NCBI RefSeq assembly: GCF_010548305.1
Contig: NZ_JAAGLV010000024.1
Coordinates: 62,001-126,000 of the forward strand
DNA: 64,000 nucleotides
DNA from: Streptomyces sp. SID13031
GTDB lineage: Bacteria > Actinomycetota > Actinomycetes > Propionibacteriales > Kribbellaceae
Direction of reading: 5' to 3'
A program made the position numbers and the translations under genes. The notes beneath the pieces are model-generated. The model worked only from the letters and a program-made list of their open reading frames with translations. It made no database searches and was not told where the DNA came from. Numbering within the stretch: position 1 is the stretch's first letter; each line of letters opens with the position of its first letter. Shown piece by piece: positions 29,886 through 60,783 of the stretch.

Positions 29886-32105
29886 GTGGATCAAACCCCC
29901 ACGTCGACCGACCTGGAGAACGTCGAGCGCGCTGAGCTCGAGGCCGAGCAGCAGCACGTCGACCAGGTGTATACCCGGGTCGCCGAGGCCGCCCGGTCCG
30001 CGTCCCGGATCGCGGTCGAAGGGCACCAGCGCGGTCAGGCGCAGAATGTCGGCCGCGTCCGCGACGAGGAGCAGACCGGTCTGTACGAGCGCGACGTCCT
30101 GGTGTTCGCCGCAGCCCGCCGGATCGCCGAGCTGGACGCCGAGCACGAGGGCCTCGTGTTCGGCCGGCTCGACTCCGACCTGGGCGACGACACCGAGGTC
30201 GTGGCGACCGCCGCGGACTTGGAGAGCCTGTACGTCGGCCGGATCGGCGTTCGCGACGCCGAGTACGAGCCGCTCGTGATCGACTGGCGTGCCCCGGCCG
30301 CCGAGCCGTTCTACCGCGCGACTCCGACCGACCGGCTGAAGGTCGTCCGGCGCCGCGTACTGCGCAACAAGGGTCCCCGCATCGCGGGGATCGAGGACGA
30401 CCTGCTGGCGCCCGATCGCGCTCCCGCCGACCTGCCCGTGATGGGTGAGGGCGCGCTGATGGCGTCCCTGTCGCGTGCTCGTGGTCACACGATGCGTGAC
30501 ATCGTCGCCACCATCCAGGCCGAGCAGGACGAGGCGATCCGGGCACCTGCCCGCGGCGTCACCGTCATCGGTGGCGGCCCCGGCACCGGCAAGACCGTGG
30601 TGGCGCTGCACCGCGCCGCCTACCTCCTGTACTCCGACCGCAGGCGGTTCGAACGCGGCGGCGTCCTGGTGGTCGGCCCGTCGGCCGCCTTCATGGCCTA
30701 CATCGAGCGAGTGCTCCCAAGCCTCGGCGAGAACACCGTGTCGCTACGGGCGGTCGGTGAACTCGTGGACGGCGTGCGGGCGACTGCTGTCGACAACGCG
30801 GACGTAGCCGCGATCAAGGGCTCCCTGCGGATGCGCGGCCTGCTCTCCCGGGTAGCACGCGACCGGGTGCCCGATGCGCCGACCGGCCTGCGGGTCTTCA
30901 TTAACGGCGCGAATGTCGAGCTGGACACGAACCAGCTCGACAACGTCCGCCGCAACGCGCTGCGCCGTACGCCGCGCAACAAGGCCGGCTCCGAAGCCCG
31001 CAAGGGCCTGGTGGCCGCGCTGTGGCAGCGGTTCCCCGACGACCTGCGGAACGGCGTCTACGCCGACCGCGAGTCGTTCGGCGACATCGTCACCGACCTG
31101 CCCGCGTACAAGCAGTTCTTCGCAGCCTGGTGGCCAGTGCTCACCCCGGGTGCCGTGCTGCGCTGGCTGGGCGACTCCCGGCGTACACAGCGCTGGTCGC
31201 GTGGGGACTTCACCCCGGCCGAGAGCGACCAGTTGTCGGCGGCAATTCGTAGTACGAGCGAGTTCACCATCGCCGACGTCGCACTGCTCGACGAGCTGAG
31301 CAACCTGCTCGGCCGGCCGCCAGTGATCGAGGCCGGCAAGGACGAGGAGTTCGACTGGCTCGAGGGGCTCTCGGACGGCGTCAACGAAGTACTGACGACC
31401 TCTGAGCGGCGTGCTCGTGCAGTGGCGGCGGCAGACGCCGAGGAGCCGGACGAGTACGCCCACGTGCTGGTGGACGAGGCACAGGACCTCTCCCCCATGC
31501 AGTGGCGCATGGTGACTCGCCGCGGCCCGCAGGCCAGCTGGACGATCGTGGGCGACCCGGCCCAGAGCTCCTGGCCCGACCCGGCCGAGGCGCGGGCGGC
31601 GATGGACTCGATGCTGTCGCACCTGCAGCGGCACACCTTCCGGCTCTCGACGAACTACCGGAACTCGGCGGAGATCTACGCCTTCGCCGGCGAGGTGATC
31701 CGGCAGGAGATCCCGGACGCCGACCTGCCGAACGCAGTACGGCAGACCGGTGTGGATCCGGAGCACCGGATCTTCGATGCGGACAAGGTCGCCGAGGCGG
31801 CAGCCGACGCGGCCGGTGAGCTCCTCCAGCTGGTCGAGGGCACCGTCGGCGTCATCGTTCCGCCAGTACTTCGCCCCGCGATCGACTCGGTGCTCAAGGA
31901 ACTCGGCGACTCCCGCGTGGTGGCGCTGAGCCCGCTGGACTCCAAGGGCCTCGAGTACGACGCCGTCGTGGTGGTCGAGCCGGACCGGATCGTGAGCGAC
32001 ACACTGGGCGGCGTCCGAGCCCTGTATGTCGTCCTGACCCGGGCCACCCAACGGATGATCACCATCAACAGCACCACCCACTGGCTACCCACCCACACCT
32101 CCTGA
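29886..32105 (+). CDS. helD: HelD-like RNA polymerase-associated helicase-fold ATPase
   Basis: Superfamily 1 ATPase of 739 aa similar in layout and length to actinobacterial HelD, which removes RNA polymerase from stalled or post-termination complexes. It has an N-terminal charged helical region (ERAELEAEQQHVDQVYTR), a Walker A GGGPGTGKTVVALHRAAYL near residue 229, a Walker B LVDEAQDLSPMQWRMV near 527, and UvrD-like motifs further on (STNYRNSAEIYAFAGE). The C-terminal SLDSKGLEYDAVVV-type motif (here PLDSKGLEYDAV) is present. GTG 29886 follows GAGAGGA. I saw no 19-bp rifampicin-associated element in the upstream gap, so induction by rifamycins is not supported. Confidence 0.88.
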   Translation: MDQTPTSTDLENVERAELEAEQQHVDQVYTRVAEAARSASRIAVEGHQRGQAQNVGRVRDEEQTGLYERDVLVFAAARRIAELDAEHEGLVFGRLDSDLGDDTEVVATAADLESLYVGRIGVRDAEYEPLVIDWRAPAAEPFYRATPTDRLKVVRRRVLRNKGPRIAGIEDDLLAPDRAPADLPVMGEGALMASLSRARGHTMRDIVATIQAEQDEAIRAPARGVTVIGGGPGTGKTVVALHRAAYLLYSDRRRFERGGVLVVGPSAAFMAYIERVLPSLGENTVSLRAVGELVDGVRATAVDNADVAAIKGSLRMRGLLSRVARDRVPDAPTGLRVFINGANVELDTNQLDNVRRNALRRTPRNKAGSEARKGLVAALWQRFPDDLRNGVYADRESFGDIVTDLPAYKQFFAAWWPVLTPGAVLRWLGDSRRTQRWSRGDFTPAESDQLSAAIRSTSEFTIADVALLDELSNLLGRPPVIEAGKDEEFDWLEGLSDGVNEVLTTSERRARAVAAADAEEPDEYAHVLVDEAQDLSPMQWRMVTRRGPQASWTIVGDPAQSSWPDPAEARAAMDSMLSHLQRHTFRLSTNYRNSAEIYAFAGEVIRQEIPDADLPNAVRQTGVDPEHRIFDADKVAEAAADAAGELLQLVEGTVGVIVPPVLRPAIDSVLKELGDSRVVALSPLDSKGLEYDAVVVVEPDRIVSDTLGGVRALYVVLTRATQRMITINSTTHWLPTHTS

Positions 32106-32122
32106 CCCCGTCATTTCGGGGT
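32105..32122. terminator. Hairpin between helD and sixA-like gene
   Basis: ACCCCG, 6-nt loop, CGGGGT begins at the last base of the helD stop codon and lies 8 bp from the convergent SixA stop. It may act in both directions. Confidence 0.5.
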
Positions 32123-32129
32123 GGGGTGG

Positions 32130-32660
32130 TCAGCCGCGGGGGATGACGTAGTCGACCAGGTCTGCGTCGTCCGGGCTGATGTTGGCCCAGCGGCTGGTGG
32201 TGTGCAGGACTGTCAGGCCTGAGGTCGGGTACTTCTGGGTGAGCTCGACGCGGTTCGGGCTGGTGCCATCGAGTGCCAGCTCGTCCGCGAGCCACGGGAT
32301 CCCGGGCGCGTGGCCGACGACGACCACCGTCCGGATCTCGGCCGGTACGTCGTAGATGACCTCAAGCAGCTCCTCGGTACCGGCACTGTAGATCCGCCGG
32401 TCGTACCAGACGTCGGTGGCGATCGCGCCGGCCTCGGCGGCGTACTGCCAGGTCTCCCTGGTGCGGATCGAGGGCGAGCACAGGACGAGCTCGGCCTCGA
32501 TGCCCTGGGCAAGCAAGTAGCGTCCCGCCGCGGCAGCGTCGGCGCGGCCGCGGTCGGCGAGCGGTCGCTCGAGGTCGGGCATCGACTCGGGCGGCACCGC
32601 CTTCGCGTGCCGGAGCAGTACCAGGGTGCGGTCGATCAGCAGGTCGGACGGGTCAGCCAT
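32130..32660 (-). CDS. SixA-like histidine phosphatase
   Basis: Histidine phosphatase superfamily protein of 176 aa. The catalytic RHA motif is TLVLLRHAKA near residue 17, and the second His is VVVGHAPGIPWLADEL near 114. A short insert-free fold and the ADRGRADAAAAGRYL motif place it with SixA-type phosphohistidine phosphatases rather than phosphoglycerate mutases. Substrate unknown. A TATCCT box ends 6 nt before ATG 32660, so it is probably leaderless. Confidence 0.88.
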   Translation of the reverse strand: MADPSDLLIDRTLVLLRHAKAVPPESMPDLERPLADRGRADAAAAGRYLLAQGIEAELVLCSPSIRTRETWQYAAEAGAIATDVWYDRRIYSAGTEELLEVIYDVPAEIRTVVVVGHAPGIPWLADELALDGTSPNRVELTQKYPTSGLTVLHTTSRWANISPDDADLVDYVIPRG

Positions 32661-49193: not shown

Positions 49194-49490
49194 ATGTCAT
49201 CACCTCATCTACTGGCCGGCCGTTGGCGATGAGCGGATCGTCGGCCCGCATCCGCGCGGCTATTACAAGACCAGCCCGGACGGCAAGGAGACCGCGTCAC
49301 CGAACAGGATCCGTCGCTCGGCTGGTCCGAGGGCCAGATGATCGGTTCGCCCGCCGACCTCAATCGCTTCTTCAGCGCCCTCATCGGCGGCAAGCTGCTC
49401 GAGCCGGCGCAGCTCGAGGAGATGCTGACCACGGTGGATGCGCCGGACTTCGAAGGCTCTCGACACCGCCCTCTGCAACTGAGAACCCGG
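49194..49490 (+). pseudogene. S12-type serine hydrolase (D-Ala-D-Ala carboxypeptidase-like) remnant
   Basis: An intact start (AAGGAG 5 nt before ATG 49194) leads into 12 codons and a stop. The next pieces, in other frames, read DERIVGPHPRGYY (about 49228-49270), then GWSEGQMIGSPADLNRFFSA and LIGGKLLEPAQLEEML up to about 49450. These match the C-terminal part of secreted S12 serine hydrolases of streptomycete type. The catalytic SxxK and YxN regions are gone. A large internal deletion plus frameshifts explain the layout. Confidence 0.65.
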
Positions 49491-49663
49491 ACTGGGCCAA
49501 GCCCGCACGCGGACGACGCCAGCCGGACCAGCCGCCGCTCCTCCCCGGGGCGGCGGCTGGTCCCTCCACAGTGCGCCCCGTTCCGCAGGTAGGCTCCAGT
49601 ACGCTCCGCCTGGTCGGCGGGAACTTCGGCTGCGTGCCTCGGGTACAGGGATATGGGGACGTC

Positions 49664-51079
49664 TTGGTTCAGTCGCGCGTGAGTCTTGGCATTCTGGGCC
49701 CGCTGCGAGTCCAGGTGGGCGACGCCGCGGTGGCTGCAACGCGGCCGGCTGTTCGCAACGTACTGGGCGCTTTGCTGATGTATCCCGGCGGGACGCTGAG
49801 TGCTGCTCGCGTGGCCGAGCTCGCCTGGGGTCCGGGCGGCTGCTCGCCTGGCGCGTTGCAGACGACGGTGACGCGGCTCAGGGACTGGCTCAAGGAGCAG
49901 TGTGGGCCCCCCGCAACGGTCGTCTGGGACGGACATGGTTACCGCCTCGAGGTTCCAGGCGCTGAGGACGACTTCAGGGAGTACCAGCAACTGGCGCTGG
50001 CTCCGCGGTCAGCCGATCCTGATGAGCGCGCCCAGGCGCTGCACCACGCGCTCAGCCTGTGGCGCGGACCGCTCTTTGCCGACGGCCCCGAATGGATCCG
50101 CACCGACCCGCTGGTACGCCGGTGGGAGGAGTCGCGGATCAGCCTGGCGCTCGAACTCGCCGATGCCGCCTTGCAAGCCGGCAAGCCCGAGTTCGCCCTG
50201 GATCAGCTGGAGCAGCTGGCCTCTGAGCTGCCGTACGACGAGAGAGTCCATGCTCGACTGCTGACCATCTTGCTTGCGTCTGGCCGACGTGCCGAGGCGT
50301 TGCGGCGGTACGACGAAGTACGGCGCAGGCTGTCCGAGGAGCTCGGGGTGGGGCCCAGCGCGGAGCTGGTCGAGGCTCATGCGGAGCTGGTCCGGGAGCC
50401 GCGGTCGGCAAGGCTTCCGTTTCACGACCCGCCGAAATCCGGGGAGCTGGTGATCGGCAGCCACGAAGCCATGATCGCCTTACCCGCCGTTCGTGCCTTG
50501 CTCGCCGAGATGCGGGCCCGTCACCCGGAGATCACCATCAAGGTCCGCCACCTCGATTTCGTCGAGCAGGTGACGGCGCTGCCCCAAGGACAGGTCGACG
50601 TCATCGTCGCCTACCTGCCGGTACCTGCGGGCGTACCGGTGGAGCCGCTCGCCACCGGCACCCGCGTCGTTGCTTGCAGCAACACCCATGCGCTGGCCTC
50701 CCGCGACCATCTCTACCTGGCCGACATGGCAGATCACATGGTGGTGAGCCTGTCCCCCAGCGTCCACCAGGAGTACCGGGACTTCTGGGCCGTCGACCCA
50801 CGCCCGGACGGCACCCGCGTCGTCTACACCGACGACGAGGTGACAAACCTCGAAGAACTCTTCTCCGCCGTAGCCATCGGCCCGCACATCACCGTCGTCC
50901 CTGAGGCCTGCCGGGAGCTGTACCCCCGCCCCGACATCTCCTACATAGACGTACTGGACATGGCACCCATCACCGTGGCCTTGGCCTGGCTCCCCGGCCC
51001 CGTCCGCCCAGCCCTGACCACCCTCATAAAAGAAGCCACCCGAGTCCGCAACAACGGGCTGGGTCAGGGCCTCTGCTAG
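49664..51079 (+). CDS. SARP-like regulator fused to a LysR-type effector domain
   Basis: Protein of 471 aa. Residues 1-95 form an OmpR/SARP winged helix (LGILGPLRVQVGDAAVAATR, later GALQTTVTRLRDWL). Residues 100-245 are a bacterial transcriptional activator domain (DDFREYQQLALAP, PYDERVHARLLTILL, LGVGPSAELVEAHAEL). From about 255 the protein reads as a LysR-type substrate-binding domain: ELVIGSHEAMIALPAVRALL, ITIKVRHLDFVEQVTALPQG and VDVIVAYLPVP, followed by VTNLEELFSAVAIGPHITVV. TTG 49664 follows GGGGA. The join is continuous and in frame. Effector and targets are unknown. Confidence 0.85.
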   Translation: MVQSRVSLGILGPLRVQVGDAAVAATRPAVRNVLGALLMYPGGTLSAARVAELAWGPGGCSPGALQTTVTRLRDWLKEQCGPPATVVWDGHGYRLEVPGAEDDFREYQQLALAPRSADPDERAQALHHALSLWRGPLFADGPEWIRTDPLVRRWEESRISLALELADAALQAGKPEFALDQLEQLASELPYDERVHARLLTILLASGRRAEALRRYDEVRRRLSEELGVGPSAELVEAHAELVREPRSARLPFHDPPKSGELVIGSHEAMIALPAVRALLAEMRARHPEITIKVRHLDFVEQVTALPQGQVDVIVAYLPVPAGVPVEPLATGTRVVACSNTHALASRDHLYLADMADHMVVSLSPSVHQEYRDFWAVDPRPDGTRVVYTDDEVTNLEELFSAVAIGPHITVVPEACRELYPRPDISYIDVLDMAPITVALAWLPGPVRPALTTLIKEATRVRNNGLGQGLC

Positions 51080-52086
51080 CCGAAGGTCATCGCGTAGGCC
51101 TCGACCGCGGGATCGAGGAAGGTGATCTCGAAGGTGCGGTCCGCGATCGGGCCGGGTTGACGAACGAGTTGGTACAACCGTTGATCGATCACCGTGCCGT
51201 AGCCCTGGTCGTCGACATCGACCCCGTGAGCCGCGGCAGGTTGCTGCCCGTCGATCAGCACCCGGAACCGCACGGCGGTACCCGGTACTGCGGGGCCCAT
51301 CACCAGATGGAGATCGCGGGCATGGAAGCGGTAGACGATCCGCCCGTTCGCCGCGTTCGACGTACTGGCCTGTGCCGAGACCGTCCAGTCCCCCGCCAAA
51401 GCCCATTGATTGGCGCCCAGGTCTTCAGGAGCGCTGTAAAGATGGGGCTTCTCCGGTACTAGCGACGCGTGGCCCCGCGTACGGGCGTACCCGAGGTAGG
51501 TCTCCTGCGATTCCAGGCTGGCCCAGTCGGCAGGTGCCTCGGCACCCTCTGCATCGACCGTCGCGAGTGGACCAGGCGCGTCGGTTGAGCCCGCCTCGGC
51601 AAGCAGGTACTGGATGACCCGCTCCGACAGTTCGTACTTGCCTTCACCGAAGTGGCGCTGCCTGAGCAGCCCGTCGGCGTCCGCGAAGTACAGGGCCGGC
51701 CAGTACTGATTGCCGAAGGCGGACCACACCGCGTAGTCGCTGTCGATCGCGACCGGATACCCGATCTCCAGCTCCCGGACGGCCCGCGCCACGTTGCCGA
51801 GGTCGGACTCGAACCCGAACTCGGGTGTGTGCACACCGATCACCACCAGCCCGTGCTCGGAGTACTTCGCGGACCAGGCCCGCAGATAGGGCAGCTGACG
51901 CAGCCAGTTGATGCAGGTGTAGGTCCAGAAGTTGACCAGGACCACCTTTCCACGCAGGCCGGCCGTGGTCAGCGGCGGCGAGTTGAGCCAATCGGTCGCA
52001 CCGGCGAACGAAGCCAGTTCGCCTTGGACGGTGAGCCGGATCGGAACCCGCGGCAGGTCCGCGGGCTCGCGTGACTGAGCTGTCAT
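51076..52086 (-). CDS. DipZ-like thioredoxin-fold protein lacking the second Cys
   Basis: Cytoplasmic-looking protein of 336 aa with an N-terminal thioredoxin-like domain and a C-terminal beta domain like that of DipZ (HLVMGPAVPGTAVRFRV, then LIDGQQPAAAHGVDVD). The expected active-site CxxC reads CINW in VVLVNFWTYTCINWLRQL near residue 51, so only one Cys remains. FGFESDLGNVARAVRELEI and a YWPALYFADADGLLR region complete the redox domain. AGAAGGG precedes the ATG. It shares its stop bases (CTAG) with the convergent SARP-LysR gene. Confidence 0.83.
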   Translation of the reverse strand: MTAQSREPADLPRVPIRLTVQGELASFAGATDWLNSPPLTTAGLRGKVVLVNFWTYTCINWLRQLPYLRAWSAKYSEHGLVVIGVHTPEFGFESDLGNVARAVRELEIGYPVAIDSDYAVWSAFGNQYWPALYFADADGLLRQRHFGEGKYELSERVIQYLLAEAGSTDAPGPLATVDAEGAEAPADWASLESQETYLGYARTRGHASLVPEKPHLYSAPEDLGANQWALAGDWTVSAQASTSNAANGRIVYRFHARDLHLVMGPAVPGTAVRFRVLIDGQQPAAAHGVDVDDQGYGTVIDQRLYQLVRQPGPIADRTFEITFLDPAVEAYAMTFG

Positions 52087-52122: not shown

Positions 52123-53445
52123 CTAGCGCAGCGACCGGAAGCTTGCGCGAAGCTCCTGCGAGAACAGCTGTGGCTGTTCCCAGGCAGCGAAGTGGCCGCC
52201 GACCGGGAGCTTGTTGTAGTGCAGGAGCTTGACGTAGGCCTTCTCGGCCCAGCTCCGCGGAGCCTGGTAGATCTCGTCGGGGAAGACGCTCACGGCGACC
52301 GGGAGCTTGATGCCCTTGACCGCGAAGAACGGGGTCTTGTTCTCCCAGAAGAGGCGCGACGAGGAGATCCCGGTGTTCGTGAGCCAGAAGTGCGTGATGT
52401 TGTCGAGGACGTCGTCGCGGGACAGGCCGAAGCCGGGCTGTCCGGCGAAGGTCCGGGAGATCATCTCCAGGCTCGCCTTGTCGTGGTCGAGCAGGAACGC
52501 GGCCAGTGCGATGGGTGAGTCGACCAGCCCGGTCAGCGTCTGTGGGCGGTCGCCCATGATGCGGGCGTAGGCGATGTGTTTGTAGACGAAGTCGAGCTGT
52601 TCACAAGCGCGCTTCTCCTCCGCCGAGAGGTTGGGCGGCAGCGGATTGCCGGCCTGGATCGCCGCATCGATCGCAGGCGGGACCACACCAGGCAGGTTGG
52701 TGTGGATTCCCAGCAGGCCGGCCGGTGCCTGGACAGCCAGCACCTCGGTCAGGATCGCGCCCCAGTCGCCGCCCTGCGCGACGTACTTGTGGTAGCCGAG
52801 GCGTTTCATCAGCTCGGTCCAGGCGCGGGCGATCCGGTTCAGGTCCCAGCCGCTGGTGGCCGGCTTGCCGGAGTAGCCGTAGCCGGGCATCGACGGAATG
52901 ACCAGGTGGAAGGCGTCCGAGGCCTTCCCGCCGTGCGCCGTGGGGTTGGTCAGCGGTTCGATGATCTTCAGTTGCTCGACGATCGATCCGGGCCAGCCAT
53001 GGGTGACCAGGAGCGGCAGCGCTCCCTCGTGCTTGGACCGGACGTGCAGGAAGTGGATGTCCAGTCCGTCGATCTCGGTGATGAAGTGCGGATGCGAGTT
53101 GATCCGCGCTTCACATTTGCGCCAGTCGTACTTCGTTGCCCAGTAACGCGCCAGCGCCTTCATCGTCGCCAGCTGAACGCCCTGGGACTGGTCTGGAACG
53201 GTCTCCTTCTCAGGCCACTGGGTGGCCAGGATGCGCCGCCGGAGCTCGAGCAGCTTCTGCTGTGGCTCATGGATGTGGAAGCGACGGATTCGTGGGTCCG
53301 TCGAGTGGCCGGCGTCCGTGCTCGACGCGGCGGCGCCGGACTGGCCGGCGAATGCGTCGGAGGTGCCGACGGTGACGGCGGCGGCCGCTGCCGCCGATAG
53401 GGACAGAAACCCTCGGCGTGAGGGCGAGCGAGCAATTTCAGACAT
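52123..53445 (-). CDS. Tat-exported epoxide hydrolase
   Basis: Enzyme of 440 aa of the microsomal (EHN-domain) epoxide hydrolase group. The N-terminus SRRGFLSLSAAAAAAVTVG is a twin-arginine signal. The EHN domain follows (KLLELRRRILATQWPEKETV), then the hydrolase fold with HGWPGSIVEQLKIIEP, the nucleophile Asp in VAQGGDWGAIL near residue 210, and GGHFAAWEQPQLF with the catalytic His near the end. It is a close paralog of the next gene, and its start overlaps that gene by 8 bp. Tat export suggests a role outside the cytoplasm. Confidence 0.9.
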   Translation of the reverse strand: MSEIARSPSRRGFLSLSAAAAAAVTVGTSDAFAGQSGAAASSTDAGHSTDPRIRRFHIHEPQQKLLELRRRILATQWPEKETVPDQSQGVQLATMKALARYWATKYDWRKCEARINSHPHFITEIDGLDIHFLHVRSKHEGALPLLVTHGWPGSIVEQLKIIEPLTNPTAHGGKASDAFHLVIPSMPGYGYSGKPATSGWDLNRIARAWTELMKRLGYHKYVAQGGDWGAILTEVLAVQAPAGLLGIHTNLPGVVPPAIDAAIQAGNPLPPNLSAEEKRACEQLDFVYKHIAYARIMGDRPQTLTGLVDSPIALAAFLLDHDKASLEMISRTFAGQPGFGLSRDDVLDNITHFWLTNTGISSSRLFWENKTPFFAVKGIKLPVAVSVFPDEIYQAPRSWAEKAYVKLLHYNKLPVGGHFAAWEQPQLFSQELRASFRSLR

Positions 53446-54652
53446 GATGAGACCTCAGCGACCGCAAGCCCACCCGGAGCTCGTCGACGTACAGCGCCGG
53501 CTGCTCCCAGGCCGCGAAGTGGCCGCCCTTGTCGAGCGTGTTGTAGTGGATGAGGTTCGGGTAGGCCTCTTCCGCCCAGCTCTTCGGTGCCTGGTAGAGC
53601 TCGCCCGGGAAGATACTCACCGCCACCGGGACGGAGACGCCCTTCGGGCCGAAGAACGACAACTTGTTCTCCCAGTAGAGGCGTCCGGACGAGATCCCCG
53701 TGTTCGTCAGCCAGTAGTGGGTGAGGTTGTCGAGCACGTCGTCCCGGGTCAGTCCCTCGGCCTGTCCGGCGAAGACCCGGGTGATCAGTGCCAGACTGGT
53801 CGCGTCGTGGTCGAGGAGCCAGCCGGCCAGGCCGATGGGCGAGTCCGCGATTCCGTACAGCGACTGTGGGTGGGTCGCCATCTCGAGTGCGTAGAACACA
53901 TCCGTCGCCCAGAACTCCCGCAGCTTCTCGTAGAGGCGGGATTCCTGGTCGTCGAGACCGGCCGGCGGCGGGCTGCCCGAGAAGACCGCAGCGGAGACGT
54001 CGTCCCGGACGGCACCCGGGAAGTTGGTGTGGATACCGGCCAGCCCCGTTGGTGCCTGCGCACCCATCAGGTCGACGATCTGCCCGCCCCAGTCACCGCC
54101 GGTGGCGACGTAGCGGTCGTACCCCAGGCGCTTCATCAGCTCTGCCCAGGCCCGTGCGATGTGCTGCGGATCCCACCCCGTCGCGGCCGGTTTGCCGGAG
54201 TAGCCGTAGCCCGGCATCGAGGGAACGACGACATGGAACGCGTCGGATGCCTGACCACCGTGTGCGGTCGGGTTCGTCAGTGGTTCGATGATCTTCAGCT
54301 GCTCGACGATCGATCCCGGCCAGCCATGGCAGACCAGCACCGGCAGGGCGTCCGCGTGCGGCGAACGGACGTGCAGGAAGTGGATGTCCAGTCCGTCGAT
54401 CTCGGTGATGAACTGCGGGAACGAGTTGATCGTCGCCTCGCACCGGCGCCAGTCGTACTCCGTGGCCCAGTACTGCGCGAGCGCCTTGACCGTCGCCAGC
54501 GGGGTGCCCTGGGACAGGTCGTCGACGGTCTCCTTCTCAGGCCATCGGGTGGCGAGGATACGGGCCTTCAGGTCTTCGAGGTCCGCCTCCGGTACCTCGA
54601 CCCTGAACGGGCGAAGCAGGGTGTCGCCTGGCGTTTCAACCGTGATAGCCAT
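53438..54652 (-). CDS. Epoxide hydrolase (EHN type), cytoplasmic paralog
   Basis: Enzyme of 404 aa closely similar to the preceding protein but without the signal peptide. Shared features are the EHN domain (DLKARILATRWPEKETV), HGWPGSIVEQLKIIEPLTNP, SMPGYGYSGKPAATGWD, the nucleophile in YVATGGDWGGQIVD near residue 165 and the GGHFAAWEQPALYVDEL tail. The two genes look like a tandem duplication with later gain or loss of the Tat signal. A three-part palindrome lies about 90 bp upstream. Confidence 0.9.
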   Translation of the reverse strand: MAITVETPGDTLLRPFRVEVPEADLEDLKARILATRWPEKETVDDLSQGTPLATVKALAQYWATEYDWRRCEATINSFPQFITEIDGLDIHFLHVRSPHADALPVLVCHGWPGSIVEQLKIIEPLTNPTAHGGQASDAFHVVVPSMPGYGYSGKPAATGWDPQHIARAWAELMKRLGYDRYVATGGDWGGQIVDLMGAQAPTGLAGIHTNFPGAVRDDVSAAVFSGSPPPAGLDDQESRLYEKLREFWATDVFYALEMATHPQSLYGIADSPIGLAGWLLDHDATSLALITRVFAGQAEGLTRDDVLDNLTHYWLTNTGISSGRLYWENKLSFFGPKGVSVPVAVSIFPGELYQAPKSWAEEAYPNLIHYNTLDKGGHFAAWEQPALYVDELRVGLRSLRSHHV

Positions 54653-54799: not shown

Positions 54800-57607
54800 T
54801 CAGGCCGGCGGGGCCGGGCGATCGGGCCGGGCGAGGGTGGCCGTCAGCTGCCGGCGGGACCGGATCCCGAGCTTGCCGAAGACGTTGCCCAGATGCCACT
54901 CGACCGTTCGCGGGCTCACGAAGAGCCGGGCCCCGATCTCCGGGTTGGACAGCCCGTCGCGGGCCAGCTCCGCGATCTGCCGCTCTTGTGCGGTCAGCTC
55001 GTCCTGGGCTTCGACCGTCCGCTTGCGTACCTTCTCACCGATCGCCTGGAGCTCGGTCCGGGCGCGTTCGGCGAACGCCTCCATCCCCATCCCGGCCAGC
55101 ATTTCGTACGCCGTGCGGAGCTGCTCGCGTCCCTGAGCCTGGTGGTTCTGCTGGCACAGCCATTCACCGTAGAGCAGGTGGGCGCGGGCGAGATCCGGGC
55201 GCAGCGGGGTGCGGCCCAATCGCTCGATCGCCTCGCGATACAGCGCGGCAGCGGTCGACCCGTCGCTCAGTATCGCCCGGGCGCGCGCCTCGATCCCGAG
55301 CGCGGCATCGGTTCCGCAGGGTTGCGTCGTCTTCGCCAGCCGGTCGAGGGTCTCCTGAGCGAGCTCGGGGTCACCGGCGCGCGCCGCGGCTTCGACGAGT
55401 TCGGGGAGCACCCACATGAACGTGATCGGGTTCATGATCTCCGAGGCGGCCTGCCGGGCGGCAGTGACTGCCTCGTCGTAGCGAGCCAGTCCGTTGAACA
55501 GCACGGCGGCGGCCCAGTTCGCCGAGACCGTCGCCATCCCCTGCCCACTCACCGCGGCCAGCTCGATCGCGCCGGCGATCAGCGGCGAGGTGTCGTCTTC
55601 TCTTCCCTGCAACGCTCGCAGCCTCAGTAGGGTGTACGGCGCGATGGGGCTGCCGATCGCCGCGGCGACGCTGTCGAGCTCCGAGATGAGCGAGGCCGTG
55701 CCCGCGAAGTCGCCCATCAACGGGAGTGCGATGCCGAGCTGGGACAGATAGAGCGGCAACTGCGCCAAGGCGCCCGATTCACGGACGAGCTCGACCTGCC
55801 GGATCGAGATCGCGTGGAGGCAGTCGAAGTCGAACACCATGGTGCTCGCGGTCGTTGCCATCCAGCCCCAGCGCAGCACGTCGCCGACCGGTATCCGGGT
55901 GAGTACTTCGGCGGCCTGCCGCAAGGTCGTGGCCGCCGCGGCGTGCCCGCCCGTGGTCACCCGGGCAAGGCCGTCGAGCAACACCTCGAGAGGACGGGGT
56001 TCACCCGGTGACGCGGGAAGTGCCTGGACCGCGCGACAGACCTCCAGGCGCGTCTCCACTCCGGAGACTTCTCCGGCCATCCCGGTCGAGCCCCATGCCA
56101 TCAGGTAGGTCTCGCGGGCAAGGTCCAGGTCGAACGGCTCGAGCCGCCGCGCGGCCTTCAGCAGCAGCGGTGGCGCTGCGCTGCCAAGACCTGAGGCGAA
56201 GGCGACATGGCCGCGGAGCAGGTCGCCACGAGCGCTCTGGAACTCGTCGAGGTCCGCGGTCTCCGCGCTGGCCAACAGCCCGAGAGCCGCGTCGAAGTCC
56301 CCGGCCTGGAAGGTAGCCTCGGCAGCGGCGAGCGCTCTGTCGGCCCGCCGGTCCTTCTCTGCGGTCAGGGCGAGCGCACGGCGAAGGAAAGCCGCGCTGG
56401 CGGCAAGCCCACCGCGGGCCTGCGCTCGTCCGGCCGAACGCTCGAGCTCCTGCGCGACCTCCTCATCGGGGCCTGCCGCCGCAGCAGCCAGGTGCCACGC
56501 GCGACGATCCGGGTCGGTCTCCCGATCTGTCACCTCCGCCAACGCGAGGTGGACGGCTCGGCGCTCCTCCGGCGCCGCTGATCCGTACACAGCCGAGCGC
56601 ACCAGCGGATGCCGGAAGGTGACCTGCTCGCCGATGGCCAGCAGCCCCTGCATTTCTTCGCCTCCCGCGGCGGCCGGCCCGAGACCGATACGCCCGGCCG
56701 CGCGCCACAGCAGCAGCGAGTCGCCGATCGGCTCGGCCGCCGCGACCAGCAGCAGCCGGCGGGAGTCTTCCGCGAGCGCCTCGAGTCGGCGAACGAAGCT
56801 CTCCTCGATCCGTCCGGTCAGTGCCCGAGGCTCGATCTGGAGCTCGGTCTGCGGCTCGGCCTGGGCCGCCAACAGGCCGAAGCCGCCCGCCAGCTGCGTC
56901 GCCGTCAGTCCTCGCGGCAGCTCGAGCAAGGCCAGCGGATTCCCCCGGGTCTCGGCGACGATCCGGTCCCGGACCTGCTCGTCGAGCCTGAATGGCACAG
57001 CCGACCTCAGCAGTGCGCGAGCGTCGTCGCTCGGCAGGCCGGTCACCTCCAGCGCCGGGATGGGCTGCAGGTGTGCACCCGGGTCGCGTGCAGCGAACAC
57101 GAGCCCCACTTGCTCCGCCAGCAAACGCCGGGCCACGAAGGCGAGAGTCTGCGCCGACGCCTGGTCCAGCCATTGCGCGTCATCGACGACGCACAGCAGC
57201 GGACGCTGCTCCGAGGCTGCGGACAGCAGACTGAGAACGGCCAGGCCCACCAGGAAGCGATCCGGTGGAGGTCCAGCGCTCAGGCCGAACACGATCCGCA
57301 GCGCATCCCGCTGTGGGGTGGGGATCGTGTCCAGCCTGTCGAGTAGCGGCGCGCACAGCTGATGGAGGCTGGCGTAGGCCAGCTCCATCTCCGATTCCAC
57401 TCCCGCTGCCTGCACGATGGCCAGGTCGGACGCGGACGCGGACAGGTACTGCAACAGCGCTGTCTTCCCGATCCCCGCCTCGCCCCGCAGTACCAGCGAG
57501 CGGCTCTCGCCGCCGCGGATGGCCGAGATCACGCCGTCCAGGAACCCACACTCCCGGTTCCGGCCGAGCAGACCACGAGCTGAAGCGAATCCGGCAGAAC
57601 CTTCCAT
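54800..57607 (-). CDS. Large LuxR-family ATPase regulator (LAL type) 1
   Basis: Regulator of about 935 aa. An N-terminal AAA/STAND ATPase has Walker A LVLRGEAGIGKTALLQYL near residue 38 and Walker B LLCVVDDAQWLDQASA near 140. A long helical TPR-like middle follows. The C-terminal LuxR HTH reads LTAQERQIAELARDGLSNPE, then IGARLFVSPRTVEWHL. I chose ATG 57607, which follows GGGGAGG; the frame stays open to GTG 57676. Such LAL proteins are often pathway-specific activators. It probably acts on the adjacent hydrolases (inference) and is a paralog of the next gene. Confidence 0.92.
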   Translation of the reverse strand: MEGSAGFASARGLLGRNRECGFLDGVISAIRGGESRSLVLRGEAGIGKTALLQYLSASASDLAIVQAAGVESEMELAYASLHQLCAPLLDRLDTIPTPQRDALRIVFGLSAGPPPDRFLVGLAVLSLLSAASEQRPLLCVVDDAQWLDQASAQTLAFVARRLLAEQVGLVFAARDPGAHLQPIPALEVTGLPSDDARALLRSAVPFRLDEQVRDRIVAETRGNPLALLELPRGLTATQLAGGFGLLAAQAEPQTELQIEPRALTGRIEESFVRRLEALAEDSRRLLLVAAAEPIGDSLLLWRAAGRIGLGPAAAGGEEMQGLLAIGEQVTFRHPLVRSAVYGSAAPEERRAVHLALAEVTDRETDPDRRAWHLAAAAAGPDEEVAQELERSAGRAQARGGLAASAAFLRRALALTAEKDRRADRALAAAEATFQAGDFDAALGLLASAETADLDEFQSARGDLLRGHVAFASGLGSAAPPLLLKAARRLEPFDLDLARETYLMAWGSTGMAGEVSGVETRLEVCRAVQALPASPGEPRPLEVLLDGLARVTTGGHAAAATTLRQAAEVLTRIPVGDVLRWGWMATTASTMVFDFDCLHAISIRQVELVRESGALAQLPLYLSQLGIALPLMGDFAGTASLISELDSVAAAIGSPIAPYTLLRLRALQGREDDTSPLIAGAIELAAVSGQGMATVSANWAAAVLFNGLARYDEAVTAARQAASEIMNPITFMWVLPELVEAAARAGDPELAQETLDRLAKTTQPCGTDAALGIEARARAILSDGSTAAALYREAIERLGRTPLRPDLARAHLLYGEWLCQQNHQAQGREQLRTAYEMLAGMGMEAFAERARTELQAIGEKVRKRTVEAQDELTAQERQIAELARDGLSNPEIGARLFVSPRTVEWHLGNVFGKLGIRSRRQLTATLARPDRPAPPA

Positions 57608-57750
57608 CGCCGATGACCTCCCCGGTGACCGCGCGGACCTCAGCCATCCAAGACCGGACAGATGGCCGGGTGCCACGTCGAAGGCCGCTCCCTGGGTCGC
57701 GGCGTCGGCCCAGGCTACTGCGCTAGACCGGATGACTTCCAGTGGTCTGG

Positions 57751-57771: not shown

Positions 57772-60642
57772 TCACCCGGCCGGCATACCCAGTTGGTCGA
57801 CGGACGGATGCCTTCTCAGCTGTCGGCGGGTGGTGACTCCGAGCTTGCTGAAGACCTTGCGGAGGTGCCACTCGACCGTGCGCCGGCTCAGGTAGAGAGC
57901 CGCTGCGATCTCCGGGTTGCTGAGGCCCTCGGCGGCCAGCCGCGCGATATGACCTTCTTGATCGGTCAGGTCCTGCTGGGTCTCGACCGTCCGCCGGCGG
58001 ACCGTCTCACCGGTCGCGGCCAGCTCACGACGTGCGCGCTCGGCGAACGCCTCGACACCCATCGCGCTGAACGACTCATGCGCTGTCCGCAGCTCGCATC
58101 GCGCATCGGCACGGCGATTTCGGCGACGCAACCATTCGCCGTAGAGCAGCCGCGCTCGCGCCAATTCGACCTGGATCCTGGTACGGCCGAGCCTGTCGAT
58201 CGCCTCCCGGTAGAGCTCCTCGGCGGAGTCGCCGTCGCGCAGCAGTGCACCCCTGGCCGCAGCGACTCCGAGCGCGTAGTCGGTGCCGCTTGCACGGGTC
58301 ATTTCCGACAGCAGGTCGAACGCGCCGGCGGCAACGTCGGCCTTGCCACTACGCACTCCAGCCTCGACCAACTCGGCGAGTGCCCATTTGGTCGGGCCCA
58401 GCTCCAGCGGTTCGGTGGCCGCCTCCTGTGCGGCGACCAAGGCGTCGTCGTACCGGCCGAGACCGTTGCAGAGGAGGGCACGGGCCGCGTTCATCATGGT
58501 GAGCCCGACTCCTTGTCCGCTGGCGGTCGCGTCGTTGATAGTCGCCTGGATCAGCTGCCCGGCCTGCGACTCGTGCCCTCGCATGGCCGCGAGCCACGAC
58601 GCGGGGATCGGGGTCAGCACGTTCTCACCACCCGTCACCTCCGCTATCCAGTTGCTCTCGGCAACCAAAGATCCGGCAGCGGCCAGGTTGCCGCTGTGGA
58701 TGTCGAAGATCGCGCGACTGGCCAGCGCGAGTGGAAGCAAGCTCAAAGCTCCTGCTTTGCGGACCACCTCCAGATGCCGCCGGCTCAGCACGTCCCAGTG
58801 CACGTCATCCCACAGGTCGACGGCCGCGACCGCCGCCACCCAGGCGCTCCTGAACGCCTCCTCGACGGTCAGGTCCTCACTGCCGAACGCCTGGATCGCC
58901 CGGTGTAGCGGGCCTGCCGATGCAACGTAGCCATCGGTGTACAGGATGGCCATCCCCTCGAGCAGCAGATCGGCCTTGCTCGGTGCCTCAGCTCTGGGCG
59001 CGGTACGAGCTGCCTGAGCCACTTGCCGCATACCGGGGCCCGGCCCAGGTGCCAGTCGTCCGGCGAACAGAGCCGCGGACAACGCATCAAGGTAGGTTCC
59101 GCGCGCGACCGCACCGTCCAGCGATTCGAATCTGCGAGCGGCCGCCAGCATCAGCGGCAGAGCCTGGTTGCCATGGATCGAGTTGTACGAGATCTGCGCC
59201 CGCAGGAGATCCACCCGCGCGAGTTCAGCCTCGGCCAATGGGCCCGACTGGGCGAAGGCCAAGAGTTTGTAGGCGTCTTCGAATGCCCCGGCGCCCGCCT
59301 TGGCCTGGGCAGCGGCGAGCGAGCGTTGCGCCCGCCGTATGGGGTCAGGCGTCAACGACGCGGCGGTCTCGTGGAAGGCAGCCGCCGCGGCAAGACCGCC
59401 CAGCGACACCGCCCGATCGGCTGAGCTTTCGAGTTCCGCCGCAACTGCTTCGTCCGGACCCAGCGCCGCACTCGCGCGGTGCCAGGCGTGGCGGTCAGGA
59501 CTGGCTTCGGCGTCTGTGGCATCAGCCAACGCCCGGTGCACTTGCCGCCGTTCCGCCGGCGTCGCGGACTGGTACATGGCCGACCGAACCAGCGGATGCC
59601 GGAAACGGACCCGGTCATGGAACTCGATCAGACCGGCTTCCTCAGCCGTCGCCGCCACGTCGGCCTCGATCCCCAGCTCCTCAGCGGCCCGCCACAGCAG
59701 CGGGATGTCGCCGACGGGTTCCGCGGCCGCGACCAGCAACAGCAGTCGTGTCTGCGGTGGCAGGCTCGCCAACTGCCGGATGAAGCCTTGCTCGAGCCGG
59801 TTGATCAACGGGCCTGTACTTCGCGCCGCCGCCGTACCGAACGCCAACTCGGCCGCGGTGAGCACCCGAGGGAGCTCGAGCAGAGCCAGCGGGTTGCCGT
59901 TGGATTCGGCGAGGATGCGATCTCGTACCCGGGGGTCGAGTGTGCCGGGGACCGCCGACTCGAGCAGCGCGGCCGCGTCCTCGGTCCCCAGCCCACGCAA
60001 CTGAAGCTCGGGAAGGCCGGCCAGCTTGGGCTCCTGATCGGTCTCTCGTACTGCGAAGACCAGTCCCAGCGGCTCTGCATCGAGCCGGCGAGCCACGAAC
60101 TCCAACGCCTGCGCAGACGCCTGGTCCAGCCACTGCGCGTCGTCGATGACGCAGATCAACGGCTGCTCCTCGGCGACACCGGCGAGCAGCGTCAGCGCCG
60201 CCAGCCCGACGAGGAAGCGGTCCGGTGCGCCGCCGCCCTGCAGCCCGAACACGGTTCTGAGTGCGTCTCGTTGCGGCAGCGGGAGGCTGTCGAGCCGGTC
60301 GAGGTACGGGCCGCAGAGCTGGTGCAGTCCGGCATACGGGAGTTCGAGTTCGGACTCGACACCCGCCGCCCGGCCGAGCTGGCATCGGCCCGCGCCCTCG
60401 ACGAGAAAGTCGAGCAGGGCGGTCTTTCCGATGCCCGCCTCACCGCGGAGTACCAGGACCTGGCTCCGGTTGGCCTGCACTGCAGCCACCAGACCGGCCA
60501 GGGTCTTGCATTCGTTCTGCCGTCCCCGCAGGGCAGCCCAGAAGACTGCAGGCGAGGTGGACGGCCTCGCGGAAGGCACGGAGCCGAGGACCGCCACTCG
60601 CCCCAGGAACGCCGTCGTTTCGTCGTGATCAGGCATTGCCAT
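57772..60642 (-). CDS. Large LuxR-family ATPase regulator (LAL type) 2
   Basis: Regulator of about 956 aa, paralogous to the preceding one. Walker A is LVLRGEAGIGKTALLDFLVE near residue 75, and Walker B is LICVIDDAQWLDQASAQALE near 175. Parallel motifs AAGVESELELPYAGLHQLCG and LFAVRETD-like segments follow. The C-terminal HTH reads LTDQEGHIARLAAEGLSNPE, then IAAALYLSRRTVEWHLRK. ATG 60642 with GAGAGG upstream is favoured over GTG 60645. The two genes lie head to tail, separated by 164 bp, and probably arose by duplication. Confidence 0.92.
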   Translation of the reverse strand: MAMPDHDETTAFLGRVAVLGSVPSARPSTSPAVFWAALRGRQNECKTLAGLVAAVQANRSQVLVLRGEAGIGKTALLDFLVEGAGRCQLGRAAGVESELELPYAGLHQLCGPYLDRLDSLPLPQRDALRTVFGLQGGGAPDRFLVGLAALTLLAGVAEEQPLICVIDDAQWLDQASAQALEFVARRLDAEPLGLVFAVRETDQEPKLAGLPELQLRGLGTEDAAALLESAVPGTLDPRVRDRILAESNGNPLALLELPRVLTAAELAFGTAAARSTGPLINRLEQGFIRQLASLPPQTRLLLLVAAAEPVGDIPLLWRAAEELGIEADVAATAEEAGLIEFHDRVRFRHPLVRSAMYQSATPAERRQVHRALADATDAEASPDRHAWHRASAALGPDEAVAAELESSADRAVSLGGLAAAAAFHETAASLTPDPIRRAQRSLAAAQAKAGAGAFEDAYKLLAFAQSGPLAEAELARVDLLRAQISYNSIHGNQALPLMLAAARRFESLDGAVARGTYLDALSAALFAGRLAPGPGPGMRQVAQAARTAPRAEAPSKADLLLEGMAILYTDGYVASAGPLHRAIQAFGSEDLTVEEAFRSAWVAAVAAVDLWDDVHWDVLSRRHLEVVRKAGALSLLPLALASRAIFDIHSGNLAAAGSLVAESNWIAEVTGGENVLTPIPASWLAAMRGHESQAGQLIQATINDATASGQGVGLTMMNAARALLCNGLGRYDDALVAAQEAATEPLELGPTKWALAELVEAGVRSGKADVAAGAFDLLSEMTRASGTDYALGVAAARGALLRDGDSAEELYREAIDRLGRTRIQVELARARLLYGEWLRRRNRRADARCELRTAHESFSAMGVEAFAERARRELAATGETVRRRTVETQQDLTDQEGHIARLAAEGLSNPEIAAALYLSRRTVEWHLRKVFSKLGVTTRRQLRRHPSVDQLGMPAG

Positions 60643-60783
60643 CACTGACCTCTCGAAGGGCCTTCAGGCACTACGCGCGGAAGGCATACGTCCATGCTCT
60701 TCAGGCAGCACGTACTCCGCGTCCGTCACCTGACGCTGTCGATGACGTAATTCGCGCCAGTCGGCGACGGGGTGTGACGGCTC

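Follow-up and report, generated by a model that had tools for sequence, protein, structure and literature searches.

The fusion gene and its surroundings

The window, i.e. the whole analysed stretch of 64,000 nucleotides, carries on its forward strand a gene in which a SARP is joined to a LysR-type effector domain (49664-51079). The open frame starts with TTG at 49664, ends with a stop codon at 51079, encodes 471 amino acids and contains no internal stop. When the four fusion genes described below were aligned, an initiator codon was found at the matching position in each of them (TTG, TTG, GTG and GTG), which makes 49664 a well-supported start. The TTG is preceded by a possible ribosome-binding site, GGGGA (49655-49659, forward strand), and in the fourth orthologue GGAGG occupies the equivalent position. 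Further upstream, TAGGCT (49590-49595, forward strand) was tentatively assigned as a -10 element. The same hexamer lies 5' of the orthologue with 82% identity and TACGCT 5' of that with 72%. No clear or convincing 11- or 22-bp direct repeat suggesting autoregulation was seen upstream of the fusion genes.

A thioredoxin-like gene (51076-52086), convergent with the fusion gene, overlaps the stop codon of the latter. Beside it, two adjacent, overlapping epoxide-hydrolase-type genes (EHN + abhydrolase; 52123-53445 and 53438-54652, reverse strand) have the look of a tandem duplication. Two adjacent large LuxR-type regulators of nearly equal length (AAA_16 + GerE; 54800-57676 and 57772-60645, reverse strand) also appear to be a tandem duplication. 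Just upstream of the fusion gene, the frame 49338-49480 (forward strand) reads MIGSPADLNRFFSALIGGKLLEPAQLEEMLTTVDAPDFEG. By eye, it is similar to a portion of a beta-lactamase/D-Ala-D-Ala carboxypeptidase-type hydrolase and is perhaps a gene remnant; Pfam gave no match for it.

The initial annotation had proposed a winged helix and a BTAD followed in one frame by a LysR substrate-binding-like domain, a proposal that depended on a significant LysR match in the C-terminal half. The Pfam search agreed with it: both the BTAD (PF03704, residues 105-242, 49976-50389; 104.1 bits, cut-off 22.1, E 1.1e-29) and the LysR substrate/effector-binding domain (PF03466, residues 258-458, 50435-51037; 72.1 bits, cut-off 28, E 5.3e-20) scored far above their cut-offs. 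Searched by itself, the C-terminal half (residues 261-471) gave 70 bits for LysR_substrate. The third family named for the search, Trans_reg_C (PF00486), reached 17.6 bits, below the cut-off of 26.2; two orthologues scored 25.4 and 24.9 bits and the fourth copy had no match. Using phmmer, residues 2-245 were aligned to EmbR (2fez, E 1.4e-17) and AfsR (8hvr, E 8.8e-16). Since these alignments run across winged helix and BTAD alike, and W74, R92 and R94 of AfsR are invariant, an OmpR-type winged helix is in our judgement present directly before the BTAD (residues 6-98, 49679-49957). Its recognition helix, at residues of about 64-76, would read ALQTTVTRLRDWL.

The two halves are connected by an inter-domain linker (residues 243-257, 50390-50434) whose length and sequence vary among the orthologues. 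With about 13-15 residues it is the only loose part of the alignment, and it is some 14 residues longer in the most distant copy (G1403). It lies where a LysR regulator would carry its linker helix. HTH_1 (PF00126) was detected in the fusion neither by Pfam nor by BLAST with the helix-turn-helix of a related LysR regulator. Pfam likewise gave no match for NB-ARC or a P-loop after the BTAD, and the protein ends beyond the LysR domain. Judged by its domains, the first 245 residues make the protein a SARP; because HTH_1 is absent, it is not classed as a LysR regulator. Single-sequence structure prediction gave models of too low quality for the domains to be placed (pLDDT of 48 for the whole protein and 40 for the effector domain).

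Conservation, distribution and origin

The search for the same fusion in other genomes, which had been suggested together with the initial annotation, revealed full-length orthologues in three other species. Two belong to the same genus (G030, 82% identity; G010, 72%) and one to another family (G1403, 52%), and Pfam recognised BTAD and LysR_substrate in all four copies. Among the three same-genus copies, pairwise dN/dS was 0.26-0.37 for the winged helix, 0.10-0.23 for the BTAD and 0.16-0.30 for the effector domain, so that all three regions are under purifying selection in these copies. The effector domain contains stretches that are strongly conserved in all four proteins, e.g. VRHLDFV and FWAVDPRPDG.

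Trees of the SARP half and of the effector half were built separately. The four fusions formed one clade in each of them (support of 100/99 and 98/91, respectively), which was recovered in 98-100% of the bootstrap trees for both halves. As the trees of both halves each group the four fusions, a single fusion event is the simplest reading, and the fusion most likely arose once.

The distribution of the fusion is sparse. It was found in 3 of the 38 genomes of the genus, in one of the four genomes of genus g446 and in one of 328 sampled genomes of the family of g446. No further fusion was detected in samples of 397 genomes of the order, 397 of the phylum, 395 of the class and 329 of family f92; these wide samples overlap and only 4-5 candidates were scored per genome, which means that distant or independent fusions could be missed. 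Searching genome contigs for related loci yielded no fusion and one Frankia SARP only. A frame of 493 amino acids in G1076 looked like a fusion and was discarded, being a normal LysR regulator whose upstream extension is spurious. Within about 10 kb, the four fusion loci share no neighbour genes. This, together with the sparse distribution, suggests horizontal spread, and the genus is likely to have acquired the gene horizontally.

The unfused relatives in the genus mostly share less than 40% identity with the SARP half, and at most ~36% with the effector half. The closest ones sit in other families, namely NB-ARC SARPs (~42-46%) and LysR regulators (~40-46%). Pfam was run on two unfused SARPs from among the nearest, and both carry NB-ARC after the BTAD. 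On the other side, a LysR-like helix-turn-helix precedes the effector domain in every unfused relative examined and is missing in the fusion. By this comparison, the fusion has lost the LysR DNA-binding part together with the linker helix, and its effector domain now follows the BTAD. In effect, the LysR domain stands in place of the usual ATPase switch of the sister SARPs.

Several loci with related halves were noted. A complete LysR regulator (G000:C52:37968-38621, reverse strand) lies on the same contig outside the window, ~73 kb from the fusion gene, and its effector domain is ~33-35% identical to the fused one. In G007, another species of the genus, the closest unfused SARP half of the genus occurs within ~8 kb of a distant effector-domain relative (G007:C17:39135-39869 and 31702-32211, listed without regard to which half is which), a proximity that is probably a coincidence. 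The neighbours of one of the closest unfused LysR relatives (L087, 5584-6543) look by eye like two acyl-CoA dehydrogenases and a phosphopantetheinyl transferase, so that the locus may be a biosynthetic cluster.

The SARP module and its relation to known regulators

In the BTA domain of AfsR, region 4 of the sigma factor is contacted by L243, E246, L247 and V249 (PMC10936776). These residues correspond to L223, E226, L227 and V229 in the fusion, the valine being replaced by isoleucine in the fourth orthologue. The base-contacting R92 and the backbone-contacting R94 of AfsR are invariant in the fusions, as R71 and R73. Among the SARP DNA contacts Q48, W74, P79, T88, R94 and K95 (AfsR numbering), W74 and R94 are kept and T88 is present in three of the four copies. 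Q48 and P79 are lost and the position of K95 is acidic, i.e. its charge is reversed. Because of these three changes, the DNA site of the fusion may differ from the afs box.

SARPs are grouped in small, medium (NB-ARC), large (TPR) and SARP-LAL subclasses (PMC10972967; PMC12224297). When 128,993 regulators of 440 Streptomyces genomes were surveyed, the SARPs among them were assigned to small, NB-ARC, TPR and LAL forms, none with a LysR domain (PMC12224297), which is in line with the architecture having been called unusual. The accompanying claim that SARPs normally end after the BTAD or carry NB-ARC/TPR is incomplete in that FHA (EmbR) and LAL or cyclase-like halves occur as well. In the literature searched, many subscription papers aside, no protein was found described as having both a LysR substrate domain and a BTAD, nor did the search return a paper linking SARP and Kribbella. 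With respect to that literature, the architecture is a new form of something known, namely SARPs that bear a sensor at the C-terminus, and not a new class.

The fusion shares the N-terminal winged helix (as judged above), the BTAD and the sigma region 4 contact residues with AfsR and the NB-ARC/TPR SARPs, whereas the C-terminal part of those proteins is a STAND ATPase with TPR instead of a LysR effector domain. EmbR (winged helix-BTAD-FHA), the best match among solved structures, also consists of a SARP module followed by a single C-terminal sensor, but this sensor is a phosphopeptide-binding FHA domain. Actinobacterial LysR regulators with a FWxxxPRPDG-like motif resemble the fusion in the effector domain (~40-46% identity to the closest members) and differ from it in having HTH_1 and the linker helix where the fusion has winged helix and BTAD. 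In the SARP-LAL and SARP-cyclase-like regulators the SARP module is also joined to another signalling half (PMC10972967). In contrast to the fusion, these halves bind ATP or GTP and none is a LysR domain.

Proposed mode of action and significance

In AfsR, two SARP modules bind side by side on direct repeats and dock sigma region 4, while the C-terminal NOD and TPR inhibit the SARP module until ATP relieves the inhibition (PMC10936776). By analogy, the fusion would be a one-component, ligand-gated SARP activator in which the LysR domain replaces the ATP-gated NB-ARC/TPR switch, a reading to which a probability of about 0.6 is given. It builds on the architecture, reading frame, conservation, probable single origin and retained sigma-contact residues described above. 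Ligand binding, gating, the activator role and the target genes are inferred. The SARP module would provide DNA binding and recruitment of RNA polymerase, and the LysR-type domain effector binding. Without ligand, the LysR domain would keep the SARP module weak or inactive, or in the wrong oligomeric state. With a small molecule bound in the LysR cleft, two SARP modules could occupy a direct repeat next to each other, at a site that overlaps the -35 region, and the paired modules would dock sigma region 4, upon which transcription would start. The LysR domain would thereby take over the role of gate from the AfsR-type ATPase (NB-ARC/TPR).

Direct sensing of a small molecule by the LysR domain is plausible, since the effector domain shows conservation as well as purifying selection; its high conservation between copies suits a working cleft. 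In NCBIfam, the effector domain matched AlsR best, at 53 bits far under the cut-off of 430, and transfer of an AlsR-type ligand was rejected. No neighbourhood clue to ligand or target was constant at the four fusion loci or around the nearest LysR relatives.

Other explanations were weighed against the activator reading. One of them was that adjacent genes had been joined by a frameshift, a sequencing error or misassembly, or that the frame is a decaying pseudogene. Nothing but the rarity of the gene points this way. Three independent orthologues carry the same fusion without stops, dN/dS is low throughout, and no remnant of a LysR helix-turn-helix lies between the halves. With the orthologues intact and the domains under selection, an artefact is ruled out for practical purposes, including the frameshift against which the initial annotation had cautioned.

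It is also conceivable, albeit rather unlikely, that the LysR domain is mainly a dimerisation or oligomerisation module for the SARP modules, with no physiological ligand or a structural one. Effector domains of LysR regulators self-associate, and with the LysR helix-turn-helix and linker helix missing, the usual coupling of the domain is gone. Moreover, the SARP module of AfsR exists as a monomer in solution, forming dimers only when bound to DNA, so that a fused dimerising domain would alter its activity (PMC10936776). However, conservation spans the whole effector domain and selection on it is about as strong as on the BTAD, which fits a working cleft better. More doubtful still is a protein that does not activate but represses, or competes for DNA binding, and whose LysR domain answers an inducer. 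The charge reversal at K95 and the missing Q48 and P79 contacts suggest changed DNA binding, and the medium SARP Atr32 acts negatively (PMC10972967), but the sigma region 4 contact residues, needless for repression, have been kept. The ligand-gated activator is the preferred reading.

SARPs are the main switches of antibiotic gene clusters, and to our knowledge signal sensing by most of them is poorly understood. In the fusion, a compact and probably ligand-binding sensor shares one chain with the activating module, which would make the questions of what a SARP senses and how its C-terminal domain gates it testable with one protein of 471 residues. We consider the chances even that such fusions represent a distinct fifth SARP subclass, horizontally spread in actinobacteria, in which a ligand on the LysR domain gates SARP-type sigma adaptation. 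If true, these would be natural one-component SARPs under ligand control, through which the product or precursor of a biosynthetic programme could be coupled to that programme. The fusion can also serve as a natural model, both for LysR-SARP chimeric biosensors and for inducible switches that turn on silent gene clusters. It further shows that evolution can exchange the regulatory half of a SARP for one from an unrelated family.
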